A stretch of 64,000 nucleotides of DNA from Gemmatimonadota bacterium (lineage in GTDB: Bacteria; Gemmatimonadota; Gemmatimonadetes; Longimicrobiales; Gaopeijiaceae): assembly GCA_022823365.1 (NCBI GenBank), contig JAJDXG010000041.1, positions 1 through 64,000 on the forward strand. The letters are read 5' to 3'. The position numbers and the translations under genes are program-made. A model generated the notes under the pieces. The model had not been told where the DNA came from. It was given only the letters and a program-made list of their open reading frames with translations, and ran no database searches. This document shows, one piece after another, positions 24,938 to 27,696 of this stretch; the stretch's first letter is position 1, and every line of letters begins with the position of its first letter.

Positions 24938-25071
24938 GGCGAGTCTCCCGTCGATCAGATTCCCGGTAACGAACAGCGACCGATATCGGCGCCATCCAGG
25001 AACACGAGATCAACGATAATGCCGGATCCGGCTCGGCGCGGGCTCGGGGAGTGGGGACACCGGAATGGGAG

Positions 25072-25154
25072 CGGAGGCGGGGGGACTCGAACCCCCAAGG
25101 GCTTTCGCCCGCCGCATTTCGAGTGCGGTGCCTTACCAATTAGACTACGCCTCC
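25072..25154 (-). tRNA. tRNA-Ser(CGA)
   Basis: Acceptor GGAGGCG/CGCCTCC, anticodon loop CTCGAAA giving CGA, long variable arm typical of Ser, T-arm GGGGG-TTCGAGT-CCCCC. Discriminator G; 3' CCA not encoded. Confidence 0.95.
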
Positions 25155-25210
25155 GGACGAAACCGGGCCGATCGGCTTAAGGACGGACCCCTCTCAACCT
25201 GCTGTCAAAA

Positions 25211-25284
25211 TCGGGGCGCCCGGATTTGAACCGGGGACCTCTGCGACCCGAACGCAGCGCTCTACCGGACTGAGCCACGCCCCG
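25211..25284 (-). tRNA. tRNA-Pro(CGG)
   Basis: Acceptor CGGGGCG/CGCCCCG, anticodon loop TTCGGGT giving CGG, discriminator A. CCA not encoded. Confidence 0.95.
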
Positions 25285-25365
25285 AAAAGTCGGTTGCCGC
25301 AAAGCAGGCGGCGATGAAGTCAATTGGCGGCCGCTTTCGCTATTCAGCGAGCTGATCCCGCCCAG

Positions 25366-25472
25366 CGGACGGGGTGGGATTCGCAACCGAGGCCCCGCGA
25401 AGCGGGCCGAAGGTGAGCCGAGGATGCAAAGCACCGGAGGCTCAACCCTGGGTTCGAACGCCCACGCCGTCC
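25366..25472 (-). repeat. tRNA-Ser-associated structured repeat, copy R1
   Basis: About 107 bp, directly 3' of tRNA-Ser(GGA) in transcript sense. The ends form an imperfect inverted repeat of ~25 bp: a CGGACGG arm, GTGGG/CCCAC and a GTTCGAACC-like arm. One end (CGGACGGCGTGGG) mimics the complement of the 3' strand of tRNA-Ser(GGA) with one mismatch in 13. Inside are two hairpins, GGCCCGC..GCGGGGCC-like and GAGCC..GGCTC. Predicted as a Y-shaped RNA or a MITE-like element. Nearly identical in sequence to R3 and partly to R2. Confidence 0.75.
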
Positions 25473-25495
25473 GATGGCGGGCTGCGCCCCGCAAG

Positions 25496-25579
25496 CGGAC
25501 GGGGTGGGATTCGAACCCACGTGGGCGTTAGCCCACACGATTTCCAATCGTGCGCCTTAAGCCACTCGGCCACCCGTCC
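25496..25579 (-). tRNA. tRNA-Ser(GGA)
   Basis: Acceptor GGACGGG/CCCGTCC, anticodon loop TTGGAAA giving GGA, long variable arm, discriminator G. Its 3' strand (CCCACCCCGTCCG) is nearly complementary to the start of repeat R1 downstream. Confidence 0.95.
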
Positions 25580-25695
25580 AAACATACATCGCCGCGATCC
25601 GTCGACCGTTTGCGAAACCACCGAGGAGAAAAGCGCGCCGCCGGAAGCGTGCGTGCCAGCGCGACGGAGCGATCCCGCAAGCCCACCCATCCAAT

Positions 25696-25796
25696 GGGGT
25701 GAGACTCGCAGCCGAGGCCCCGCGAAGCGGGCCGAAGGCGAGACGAGGAGACAAACCCCGCAGCCTCAATCCCGGGCTGGACCAGCGGCCGTCCAC
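25696..25796 (-). repeat. tRNA-Ser-associated structured repeat, copy R2 (degenerate)
   Basis: Keeps the internal hairpin (CCCGC-GAA-GCGGG on the plus strand) and the CCGAAGG joining segment of R1 exactly, but the second hairpin and the tRNA-like ends have drifted. It lies tandem to R3, on the side away from tRNA-Ser(GCT). Confidence 0.6.
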
Positions 25797-25815
25797 CGCG
25801 CCCGTTATGCCACCA

Positions 25816-25922
25816 CGGGGGTGGGATTCGCAACCGAGGCGCCGCGACAGCGGCACCGAAGGTGAGCCGAGGATGCAAAGCGCCGGAGGCTCAACCCTGG
25901 GTTCGAACGCCCACCCCCTCCG
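25816..25922 (-). repeat. tRNA-Ser-associated structured repeat, copy R3
   Basis: About 107 bp, 3' of tRNA-Ser(GCT) in transcript sense. Its tRNA-proximal end (CGGAGGGGGTGGG) is the exact complement of that tRNA's 3' strand (CCCACCCCCTCCG), whereas R1's end matches tRNA-Ser(GGA) instead. Internal hairpin changed to GCCGC-GACA-GCGGC, a compensatory C/G swap relative to R1. Confidence 0.75.
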
Positions 25923-25942
25923 GCGCGAGCGCCGCTCGCGAG

Positions 25943-26028
25943 CGGAGGGGGTGGGATTCGAACCCACGAGACCCTCTCGGGTCAACGCCTTAGCAGGGCG
26001 CCGCCTTAAGCCACTCGGCCACCCCTCC
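25943..26028 (-). tRNA. tRNA-Ser(GCT)
   Basis: Acceptor GGAGGGG/CCCCTCC, anticodon loop CTGCTAA giving GCT, long variable arm, discriminator G. Followed by repeats R3 and R2. Confidence 0.95.
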
Positions 26029-26033
26029 GAAAA

Positions 26034-26106
26034 TTGCCCCGCCTGGGATCGAACCAGGACTCTTCTGATCCAGAGTCAGACGTGTTGCCAGTTACACCAC
26101 GGGGCA
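26034..26106 (-). tRNA. tRNA-Gln(CTG)
   Basis: Acceptor TGCCCCG/CGGGGCA, anticodon loop CTCTGGA giving CTG, discriminator A. Separated by only five bases from tRNA-Ser(GCT). Confidence 0.95.
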
Positions 26107-26152
26107 TTCAACCACCAATTTGCGCACTCACCGCCCAGGCTGGCAAGCCGCA

Positions 26153-26225
26153 AGCCACCAGTCGGATTCGAACCGACGACCCCGTCATTACGAGTGACGT
26201 GCTCTACCAGCTGAGCTATGGTGGC
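26153..26225 (-). tRNA. tRNA-Thr(CGT)
   Basis: Acceptor GCCACCA/TGGTGGC, anticodon loop CTCGTAA giving CGT, discriminator T. Confidence 0.95.
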
Positions 26226-26257
26226 GGCCATGCCGACCGTCGCCGGCCAGGCAGGAG

Positions 26258-26330
26258 TGGAGCCGAGGGGAATCGAACCCCTGACCTCAGCATTGCGAAC
26301 GCTGCGCTCTCCCAACTGAGCTACGGCCCC
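26258..26330 (-). tRNA. tRNA-Ala(CGC)
   Basis: Acceptor GGGGCCG/CGGCTCC with the G3-U70 wobble pair that marks alanine tRNAs; anticodon loop TTCGCAA giving CGC; discriminator A. Confidence 0.95.
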
Positions 26331-26364
26331 TGCTTGCCCGCTTCCGCGGAACCGTGTTGACGCA

Positions 26365-26438
26365 TGGGCGCGAGAGGATTCGAACCTCTGACCTCTACGA
26401 TGTCAACGTAGCGCTCTAACCAGCTGAGCTACGCGCCC
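26365..26438 (-). tRNA. tRNA-Val(GAC)
   Basis: Acceptor GGGCGCG/CGCGCCC, anticodon loop TTGACAT giving GAC, discriminator A. Confidence 0.95.
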
Positions 26439-26482
26439 TCGGCCGGAAACCGGTCCTGGCCTTAACCTCCCCCGGAGGGGAA

Positions 26483-26556
26483 TACGCCCGGGAGGACTCG
26501 AACCCCCAACCTCTTGATCCGTAGTCAAGCGCTCTGTCCAATTGAGCTACGGGCGC
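26483..26556 (-). tRNA. tRNA-Arg(ACG)
   Basis: Acceptor GCGCCCG/CGGGCGT, anticodon loop CTACGGA giving ACG, which is read after conversion of A34 to inosine by TadA. Discriminator A. Confidence 0.95.
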
Positions 26557-26608
26557 TGATGTGCCGTCCGCCTTCACCAGGGAAGGCCAACCGTTGATGG
26601 CCTGCAAG

Positions 26609-26692
26609 TGCCCACGACAGGACTCGAACCTGTACGCCGTTTCCGACACTGGTCCCTCAAACCAGCCTGTCTACCAATTCCAGCACGTGGGC
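26609..26692 (-). tRNA. tRNA-Leu(GAG)
   Basis: Acceptor GCCCACG/CGTGGGC, anticodon loop TTGAGGG giving GAG, long variable arm, discriminator A. Confidence 0.95.
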
Positions 26693-26741
26693 AAATGTCC
26701 TCCATCGAAACGCTGCCGCCGCTTGCCGCCGCGGCCTGCCA

Positions 26742-26826
26742 TGCTCGGAGAGGGACTCGAACCCTCACGGGGTTAACCCCCACAGGATCCTGAATCCTGC
26801 GCGTCTACCAATTCCGCCATCCGAGC
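26742..26826 (-). tRNA. tRNA-Leu(CAG)
   Basis: Acceptor GCTCGGA/TCCGAGC, anticodon loop TTCAGGA giving CAG, long variable arm, discriminator A. Confidence 0.95.
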
Positions 26827-26855
26827 GTGCTCGCCTTCACGGACAAGGCGGCCCA

Positions 26856-26928
26856 TGGAGCCGAGGGGAATCGAACCCCTGACCTCCTGAATGCCATTCA
26901 GGCGCTCTCCCAACTGAGCTACGGCCCC
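26856..26928 (-). tRNA. tRNA-Ala(GGC)
   Basis: Same acceptor and T-arm as tRNA-Ala(CGC), including G3-U70; anticodon loop ATGGCAT giving GGC. Confidence 0.95.
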
Positions 26929-26968
26929 GATCCTTCGCCGATGACCCGATTTGTCAAGAAACAAGCAG

Positions 26969-27042
26969 CGGGGCTGACGGGACTCGAACCCGCGGCCTCC
27001 GGTGTGACAGACCGGCACTCTAACCAACTGAGCTACAGCCCC
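26969..27042 (-). tRNA. tRNA-Asp(GTC)
   Basis: Acceptor GGGGCTG/CAGCCCC, anticodon loop CTGTCAC giving GTC, discriminator G as expected for Asp. Confidence 0.95.
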
Positions 27043-27072
27043 TGCTCCGCGCTCTTCGCGCGTCCTTTCAAA

Positions 27073-27144
27073 CGCCCTCACGGGGAATCGAACCCCGACC
27101 GCCACCTTGAAAGAGTGGTGTCCTAGCCGTTAGACGATGAGGGC
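27073..27144 (-). tRNA. tRNA-Glu(TTC)
   Basis: Acceptor GCCCTCA/TGAGGGC, anticodon loop CTTTCAA giving TTC, discriminator G. Confidence 0.95.
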
Positions 27145-27160
27145 TCTCCCCCCAGTTGTA

Positions 27161-27233
27161 CAGGCCCGGAGGGACTCGAACCCCCAACCCCCGGTTTTGG
27201 AGACCGGTGCTCTACCAGTTGAGCTACGGACCC
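27161..27233 (-). tRNA. tRNA-Trp(CCA)
   Basis: Acceptor GGGTCCG/CGGGCCT, anticodon loop CTCCAAA giving CCA, discriminator G. The first pair is a G1-U72 wobble instead of the usual A-U. Confidence 0.93.
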
Positions 27234-27276
27234 CCGCGCACACGACCGGCCATCCTCCGGCCGGTGAGCCGGTAGA

Positions 27277-27349
27277 TGGCCAGGGGCGGAATCGAACCGC
27301 CGACACCGCGATTTTCAGTCGCGTGCTCTACCAACTGAGCTACCTGGCC
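27277..27349 (-). tRNA. tRNA-Phe(GAA)
   Basis: Acceptor GGCCAGG/CCTGGCC, anticodon loop CTGAAAA giving GAA, discriminator A. A terminator-like T7 tract ends at the base just before its 5' end. Confidence 0.95.
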
Positions 27350-27381
27350 AAAAAAACGCCCGAACCTTTTCGGTGCGGGCG
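27350..27381 (-). terminator. Rho-independent terminator abutting tRNA-Phe
   Basis: On the minus strand CGCCCGCACC-GAAAA-GGTTCGGGCG forms a 10-bp stem with one mismatch, followed by seven T. The T tract touches the 5' base of tRNA-Phe, so it either leaks or acts as an attenuator for the tRNAs beyond it. Confidence 0.75.
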
Positions 27382-27405
27382 GCTGGGTCGGGAGCTTGCC
27401 GGGGG

Positions 27406-27564
27406 CTACCGGCGAGTCCCGCTTCCCCGCCCGCGAGGGCTCGACCACGTATCGGACGCAAACCAGCGAAGCGCCCGCACGCGGACCGACCTCCGGAAAG
27501 GCCACGGTCGACGGGTTTCGGTCGCTTCCGGCATGATTTCCGCCTCGGTTTCCTGTGTTGTCAT
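27406..27564 (-). CDS. Possible 52-residue small protein or leader peptide
   Basis: A short minus-strand frame, ATG 27564 to TAG 27406, lies between two terminator hairpins (27592-27614 upstream, 27350-27381 downstream). The peptide has an acidic first third and an Arg-rich remainder, with Trp at 21, 34 and 40 and Phe at 23 and 35. The ribosome site (GACGAGAG) is weak. The two tRNAs beyond the downstream terminator are Phe and Trp, so a leader-peptide role is conceivable; it could equally be chance. No family recognised. Confidence 0.3.
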   Translation of the reverse strand: MTTQETEAEIMPEATETRRPWPFRRSVRVRALRWFASDTWSSPRGRGSGTRR

Positions 27565-27591
27565 CTCTCGTCAAACTGTCCTGCTACGTGG

Positions 27592-27614
27592 AAAACGCCG
27601 CCATTTCGGCGGCG
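27592..27614 (-). terminator. Rho-independent terminator after tRNA-fMet
   Basis: On the minus strand CGCCGCC-GAAAT-GGCGGCG (7-bp perfect stem) is followed by TTTTC; it begins nine bases after the tRNA-fMet 3' end. Confidence 0.8.
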
Positions 27615-27622
27615 CTTCCAAG

Positions 27623-27696
<74 letters not shown>

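Follow-up and report, generated by a model that had tools for sequence, protein, structure and literature searches.

The window, a 64,000-nucleotide stretch of a draft Gemmatimonadota genome (G000; 63 contigs, 3.8 Mb), contains a tRNA cluster (25071–27696) that is encoded on its minus strand, and the minus strand therefore serves as the sense strand in all descriptions of the repeats. Two serine tRNA genes of this cluster, tRNA-Ser(GGA) (25495–25579, minus strand) and tRNA-Ser(GCT) (25942–26028, minus strand), are the hosts of three repeat units on the same strand. R1 (25364–25473) lies 3′ of tRNA-Ser(GGA), and R3 (25816–25922) lies 3′ of tRNA-Ser(GCT), where it is followed in tandem by a second, degenerate unit, R2 (25694–25798), which the R1 model recovers at 60 bits. 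The three repeats, all on the minus strand, lie where the original prediction, made from the letters of the window, placed them; repeat comparison located them at 25366–25472 (R1), 25696–25776 (R2) and 25818–25921 (R3). A short GC hairpin separates each host gene from its first unit, spanning 25474–25493 (−10 kcal/mol) ahead of R1 and 25923–25941 (−11 kcal/mol) ahead of R3, and no terminator-like or promoter-like site was found between the genes. Read 5′ to 3′ from the tRNA, the order is the small hairpin, the tRNA 3′ end in inverted copy, a hairpin core and the tRNA 3′ end in direct copy.

In R1, the sense strand starts with CGGACGGCGTGGGCGTTCGAACCC, an inverted copy of the tRNA-Ser(GGA) end (arm A, 25450–25473). 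Hairpin I (25410–25448) begins with GGGTTGAGCC (D1), a segment resembling the 5′ side of the tRNA T arm, and is followed by hairpin II (25391–25409); both hairpins show compensatory changes. The unit closes with arm D2 (25364–25388), a direct copy of the tRNA-Ser(GGA) 3′ end that finishes with GGTTGCGAATCCCACCCCGTCCGCT. This distal copy, CGAATCCCACCCCGTCCGCT, comprises 20 contiguous nucleotides identical to the tRNA end and the first trailer bases, up to GTCCGCT, so that both ends of R1 are tRNA-derived, where only one had been described before. R3 has a corresponding arm A (25899–25922) and arm D2 (25816–25835), the latter identical over 14 nt and then eroded, and R2 retains fewer identical nucleotides. 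As had been claimed, the tRNA-proximal arm is complementary to the host tRNA at 13 of 13 positions in R3, with tRNA-Ser(GCT), and at 12 of 13 in R1, with tRNA-Ser(GGA). The further claim, that the repeats are matched to their own tRNA, is thinly supported within the window because the 3′ strands of the two tRNAs differ there at one base, leaving one informative base per repeat; it gains its strength from other genera. Across the genus, the discriminating base is C in the GGA copies and G in the GCT and TGA copies, these copies being largely orthologous. In one relative (G004, L009, 1395–1479), the T arm of tRNA-Ser(GGA) is itself altered, with GTGGGTTAGAATACCAC in place of GTGGGTTCGAATCCCAC, possibly a sequencing error.

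Two further copies occur in the same genome, on a different contig, behind the unlinked tRNA-Ser(TGA). With 18 copies as its basis, a covariance model returned 29 matches, spread over all 11 genomes of the genus; the search covered 154 genomes of the order, and none from outside the genus had a match. All 29 lie 3′ of a tRNA-Ser gene of the GGA, GCT or TGA type, which bears out the proposed link to tRNA-Ser and leaves no hit at a random site away from tRNA genes, the outcome that had been named as contradicting it. tRNA-Ser(CGA) is without the element throughout the genus, and two pattern matches in Verrucomicrobia were discarded as chance, lying inside coding DNA. The element is also present in MAG records filed as BD2-11 clade bacterium, as Gemmatimonadetes or, by their depositors, as Gammaproteobacteria; we take the host genus to belong to the BD2-11 clade of Gemmatimonadota. 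By their bin names, these MAGs come from sponges. The Gemmatimonadota data are draft or MAG assemblies, except for a few single-contig genomes (including G014, G060 and G061). In G002 (L061), an N run and unrelated sequence split tRNA-Ser(TGA), parting the anticodon region from the T arm, probably through a scaffolding error.

Sense-strand folds of R1 and R3 are far more stable than those of shuffled sequences (z −4.6 and −4.9), but that of R2 is not (z −0.6). In the consensus structure, the inverted arm pairs with the direct copy in a long stem that closes the two hairpins. Both hairpin stems are paired in 98–99% of cells, with double changes; hairpin I holds seven of the C-G/G-C type and three of the C-G/U-A type, which confirms the compensatory C/G swap noticed earlier in an internal hairpin. 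Overall, 25 double-change cells were observed, compared with 9.1 in shuffles and at most 4 when the partners were slid, and covariation is therefore present in the many-copy alignment, whose failure to show it would have counted against the prediction. Compensatory change of this kind supports a maintained structure, which RNA selection or template-switch correction of DNA hairpins alike could yield; template switching makes reverse-complement copies and compensatory changes (PMC8794818). As for G-U pair strand asymmetry, a possible sign of RNA rather than DNA selection, both strands fold equally well and variable cells are too few. GC-rich hairpins 3′ of tRNA genes could also be plain intrinsic terminators, or the resemblance to tRNA could be chance. 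Yet the repeats contain no terminator-like site, the combination of GC hairpin and T run being missing, the identities are far above those of shuffles, and there is conservation across 11 species. With the genus-wide model matches, the family survey described below and the covariation, we consider this explanation ruled out for practical purposes.

The same sequences allow a different kind of fold within the precursor. In 13 of 13 genus precursors, the predicted minimum-energy structure pairs 20–24 of the last 25 tRNA nucleotides with the trailer and destroys the cloverleaf, and the pairing of the inverted arm with the tRNA is predicted to be more stable than that with the direct copy, again in 13 of 13; these are equilibrium calculations, made without cotranscriptional folding or cleavage. 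The unit might accordingly be read as a cis-acting regulator of tRNA-Ser maturation, in which the inverted arm would capture the tRNA 3′ half and the direct copy would compete for it, producing a switch between trapped and free pre-tRNA. Predicted capture in every precursor, hairpin covariation and the fit of the inverted arms to their own tRNA are consistent with such a switch. However, equilibrium folding takes no account of the order of events in transcription, where the cloverleaf is the first to form, or of a possible early cleavage of the trailer, and inverted-arm tracking is not specific to regulation, since template-switch correction can also produce it. The distribution argues in the same direction: the unit occurs irregularly, being absent behind many tRNA-Ser genes in genera that have it (among them tRNA-Ser(GGA) of G005), the tRNA-Ser(TGA) loci of G004 and G010 retain only a reduced unit without hairpins, and many units of other genera have no strong inverted copy. 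A trailer RNA that pairs with the tRNA 3′ half and controls its maturation, the first reading of the original prediction, is structurally possible, judging from the modelled folds; the switch as formulated here we regard as unlikely.

The tRNA-Ser(GGA) locus of G005, a sister species, provides an empty site. There, GTCCGCT is joined directly to the flanking sequence that comes after the direct copy in the window, and the alignment of the two sequences contains one clean gap of ~131 bp, corresponding to R1 as an insertion, with the tRNA end duplicated on both sides (duplication ~23 bp). In G005 the unit was either lost via recombination between the duplicates or never present. Units occur once at the GGA locus and twice at the GCT locus of the window, and twice at the TGA locus of the same genome; perfect or near-perfect tandem pairs are found in G014 and G060. 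Pairwise comparisons within the genus revealed similar core identity for units at the same locus (85.8%), in the same genome (87.3%) and in unrelated pairs (85.3%), whereas the outer 5′ arm is 74.8% identical at the same locus and 49.8–57.8% otherwise. Because core identity is equal across pair classes and the outer arm is locus-specific, cores have been exchanged between tRNA-Ser loci while the outer arms stayed. Genus g27 illustrates this directly: in G045, the GCT core is 96% identical to the GGA core of the same genome, and the related G051 shares the GGA unit (100%) but has a quite dissimilar GCT unit (76%). The ends nonetheless differ as the tRNAs do, with AATCCCACCCCGTCCG at the GGA locus and AATCCCACTCCCTCCG at the GCT locus.

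A MITE-like or cassette-like mobile element that uses the tRNA-Ser 3′ end as attachment site and is moved by a recombinase in trans could likewise account for the clean insertion flanked by duplicates of the tRNA end, for the tandem arrays, for the exchange from locus to locus and for the two copies away from tRNA genes. Ordinary integrated elements with 55-bp tRNA-Ser duplications do exist in the family, but their duplications start at the anticodon stem and not at A(A)TCC. A cognate enzyme was not found, though none was sought systematically, nearly all copies lie at tRNA-Ser or tRNA-Pro, and a search of viral contigs and plasmids gave no match, with phage matches of 31 nt at a non-significant E of 0.08; phage or plasmid origin was rejected on this basis. 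Like MITEs and tRNA-targeting integrative elements, the units insert at a tRNA 3′ end and duplicate it; unlike them, they have almost no dispersed copies, and their ends vary with the adjacent tRNA. Where a MITE would carry terminal inverted repeats and a target-site duplication, the units have mutually inverted arms A and D2 and a duplicated flank, but both arms are copies of the target tRNA rather than ends belonging to the element, and the genus copies all lie at tRNA-Ser, the two off-site copies being those of genus g27. Of the proposal of a MITE-like element that duplicates Ser-tRNA ends, the empty site, the ~23-bp duplication, the linkage in 29 of 29 matches and the local ends have held; the label MITE has not, given that copies off tRNA genes are nearly absent. 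Overall, we judge a mobile element moved by a recombinase in trans an unlikely source of the units.

Several individual loci touch on this subject. Copies without a neighbouring tRNA gene were found just twice, one in G041 (L292, G041:C347:2600-5839) and a partial one in G051 (L291, G051:C51), both in draft genomes; the G041 copy adjoins a gene resembling DUF262/HNH endonucleases, which may mark mobility or an assembly join. Elsewhere, an ORF that reads like a tyrosine recombinase starts ~147 bp behind a tRNA-Ser(TGA) (L141, G019:C100:49500-51200). In G015 (L136, G015:C10:3000-9500) and G021 (L137, G021:C410), tRNA-Ser(TGA) 3′ halves are duplicated over ~55 bp, 3.2–3.3 kb apart; these were considered as autonomous versions of the unit and rejected, as the duplications start in the anticodon stem and are typical of ordinary integrated elements. 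Integron sites of the attC type, which a bulged G and a GTTRRRY-like GTTGAGC might have suggested, were dropped, since other copies do not retain the motif.

We extended the comparison to 734 Gemmatimonadota tRNA trailers, scoring each for a copy of its own tRNA end (direct score of at least 13 or inverted score of at least 12, empirical thresholds; in a similar run, no shuffled trailer scored above 12). This search, which started from the tRNA instead of the repeat, showed that the phenomenon extends further than the core sequence. Within the family of the window, such copies were present in 61 of 147 Ser trailers, 6 of 39 Pro trailers, none of 66 Leu trailers and 1 of 331 others, that is, in 1 of 397 trailers of tRNAs other than Ser and Pro. 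A second family of the class had them in 8 of 24 Ser trailers, and seven other families in none of 81. Some tRNA-Pro(CGG) trailers carry units of the same kind that copy the tRNA-Pro end (L099 and L115 in G021, L164 in G101, L181 in G106), so the phenomenon is not confined to tRNA-Ser. Across genera, the layout is broadly constant, with a spacer, a strong or weak inverted copy, a T-arm-like GGTTCGAG, hairpins and a direct copy starting from A(A)TCC, while the cores differ. Many units of other genera combine a direct copy with an inverted copy that is not strong; in the sister genera, most units have full 16-nt acceptor-side copies. Two loci (L098 in G011 and L164 in G101) hold minimal units, an inverted and a direct copy forming a hairpin of ~35 nt with no core, possibly an early or a reduced stage.

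The survey also addressed how far the ends follow the adjacent tRNA, as had been proposed. When direct copies were compared with the other Ser and Pro tRNAs of the same genome, the own tRNA fitted better in 206 of 211 comparisons and worse in 5; by copy, 51 of the 56 informative ones were strictly best with their own tRNA, the five exceptions being eroded copies in the window's genus. Inverted copies fitted their own tRNA better in 73 comparisons and worse in none, with 3 ties. The copies behind these counts are not fully independent, as species share ancestry. Since the genus copies are largely orthologous and differ by one discriminating base, the own-tRNA claim is strong only with the other genera included.

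Such local copies could also arise repeatedly de novo, as a neutral by-product of template switching and slippage at a highly transcribed, quasi-palindromic tRNA end; the units would then not behave as elements, and their compensatory changes would stem from hairpin correction. Template switching yields both reverse-complement copies and compensatory changes (PMC8794818), the minimal units of G101 and G011 consist of just an inverted and a direct copy, and the inverted arm is a better match to the tRNA, which lies nearer, than to the more distant direct copy. On the other hand, only Ser and Pro are affected although tRNAs of the same operon have similar T arms, the core sequence is conserved over 11 species, and genus-wide cores common to three loci call for spread rather than repeated invention. 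We see this by-product as a conceivable origin of the whole unit but a doubtful one.

The closest known counterparts are the tRNA-linked repeats (TLRs) of Escherichia coli, known since 1978 (Egan and Landy 1978; Rudd 1999; described in PMC8144298), whose hallmark is that the 18–19 bp at the 3′ end of the unit exactly repeat the 3′ end of the tRNA or rRNA ahead of it (PMC8144298). In MG1655, we found exact 18–19-nt copies behind both tyrosine tRNAs (tyrT-tyrV), two arginine tRNAs of the argQ cluster and five lysine tRNAs, and no such match at the other E. coli tRNA loci examined. These direct copies likewise begin at A(A)TCC, and at tyrT and lysQ there is also an inverted arm with a T-arm-like segment after it, an order shared with the window. 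The two groups share a position directly 3′ of a tRNA gene, a copy of the host's end at the 3′ end of the unit, tandem units (one to five per locus, often in tandem, in TLRs) and a structured core. The hallmark is present in R1 (20 nt), and R3 (14 nt) and R2 fall short of it; with the R3 direct copy eroded and R2 degenerate, not every unit keeps it. The units described here differ from TLRs in belonging to another phylum, in being linked to Ser and Pro rather than to Tyr, Arg, Lys or 5S, in the more prominent long inverted arm, in the lack of an encoded CCA in the copy and in the erosion of several units.

Core similarity to the E. coli TLRs was at chance except for isolated pairs, at the sensitivity tested, and core homology beyond these pairs was rejected. 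RtT RNA (Rfam RF00391, rttR of tyrT) is the transcript of the tyrT TLR and has an anatomy like that of the window units, and RtT-family RNAs have been reported for Pasteurellaceae (PMC4986893). The RF00391 model matched its E. coli positive control but nothing in the window and none of 121 genomes of the family, and an Rfam search gave no family besides tRNA above the cut-off. In the rrA, rrB and rrF units, which are TLRs behind 5S rRNA, a copy of the upstream RNA's 3′ end also stands at the 3′ end of the unit; this copy has been suggested to guide RNase E cleavage, and the small RNAs bind Hfq and CsrA (PMC8144298). As the RtT model is unmatched and E. coli core homology is not shown, we file the window units by architecture only, as TLR-like, a Ser/Pro-linked variant in another phylum outside the RtT sequence family.

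We consider it probable that the elements are TLR-like units that spread among tRNA-Ser genes by recombination and are transcribed in the pre-tRNA. A unit would move between tRNA-Ser genes, and expand or contract in tandem, via recombination through the shared tRNA-derived ends. Crossovers would lie within these ends and so keep them local, and template switching may additionally adjust the inverted arm to the tRNA next to it. Within the pre-tRNA, the direct copy would pair with the inverted arm to form a stem similar to an acceptor stem stacked on a T stem, and processing of the tRNA 3′ end would release a structured by-product RNA of ~100 nt. By analogy with the suggestion for rrB (PMC8144298), the direct copy may be cut like a tRNA end. 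A bolder proposal is that of a tRNA-trailer class common to distant phyla, in which the inverted and direct copies would act as a built-in antisense/decoy pair regulating the maturation of their own tRNA, with the ends kept matched to it by selection; this we think quite improbable.

Finding this layout in a distant phylum and next to different tRNAs gives a cross-phylum counterpart to the E. coli TLRs, on whose function and origin there has been no agreement since 1978. With numerous species, empty sites, exchanged cores and ends that fit the local tRNA, both questions become approachable by comparative genomics and simple RNA experiments. In the single-contig genome G060, two perfect tandem units of 131 bp and the start of a third lie behind tRNA-Ser(TGA) (L293), a good locus for watching expansion and contraction.
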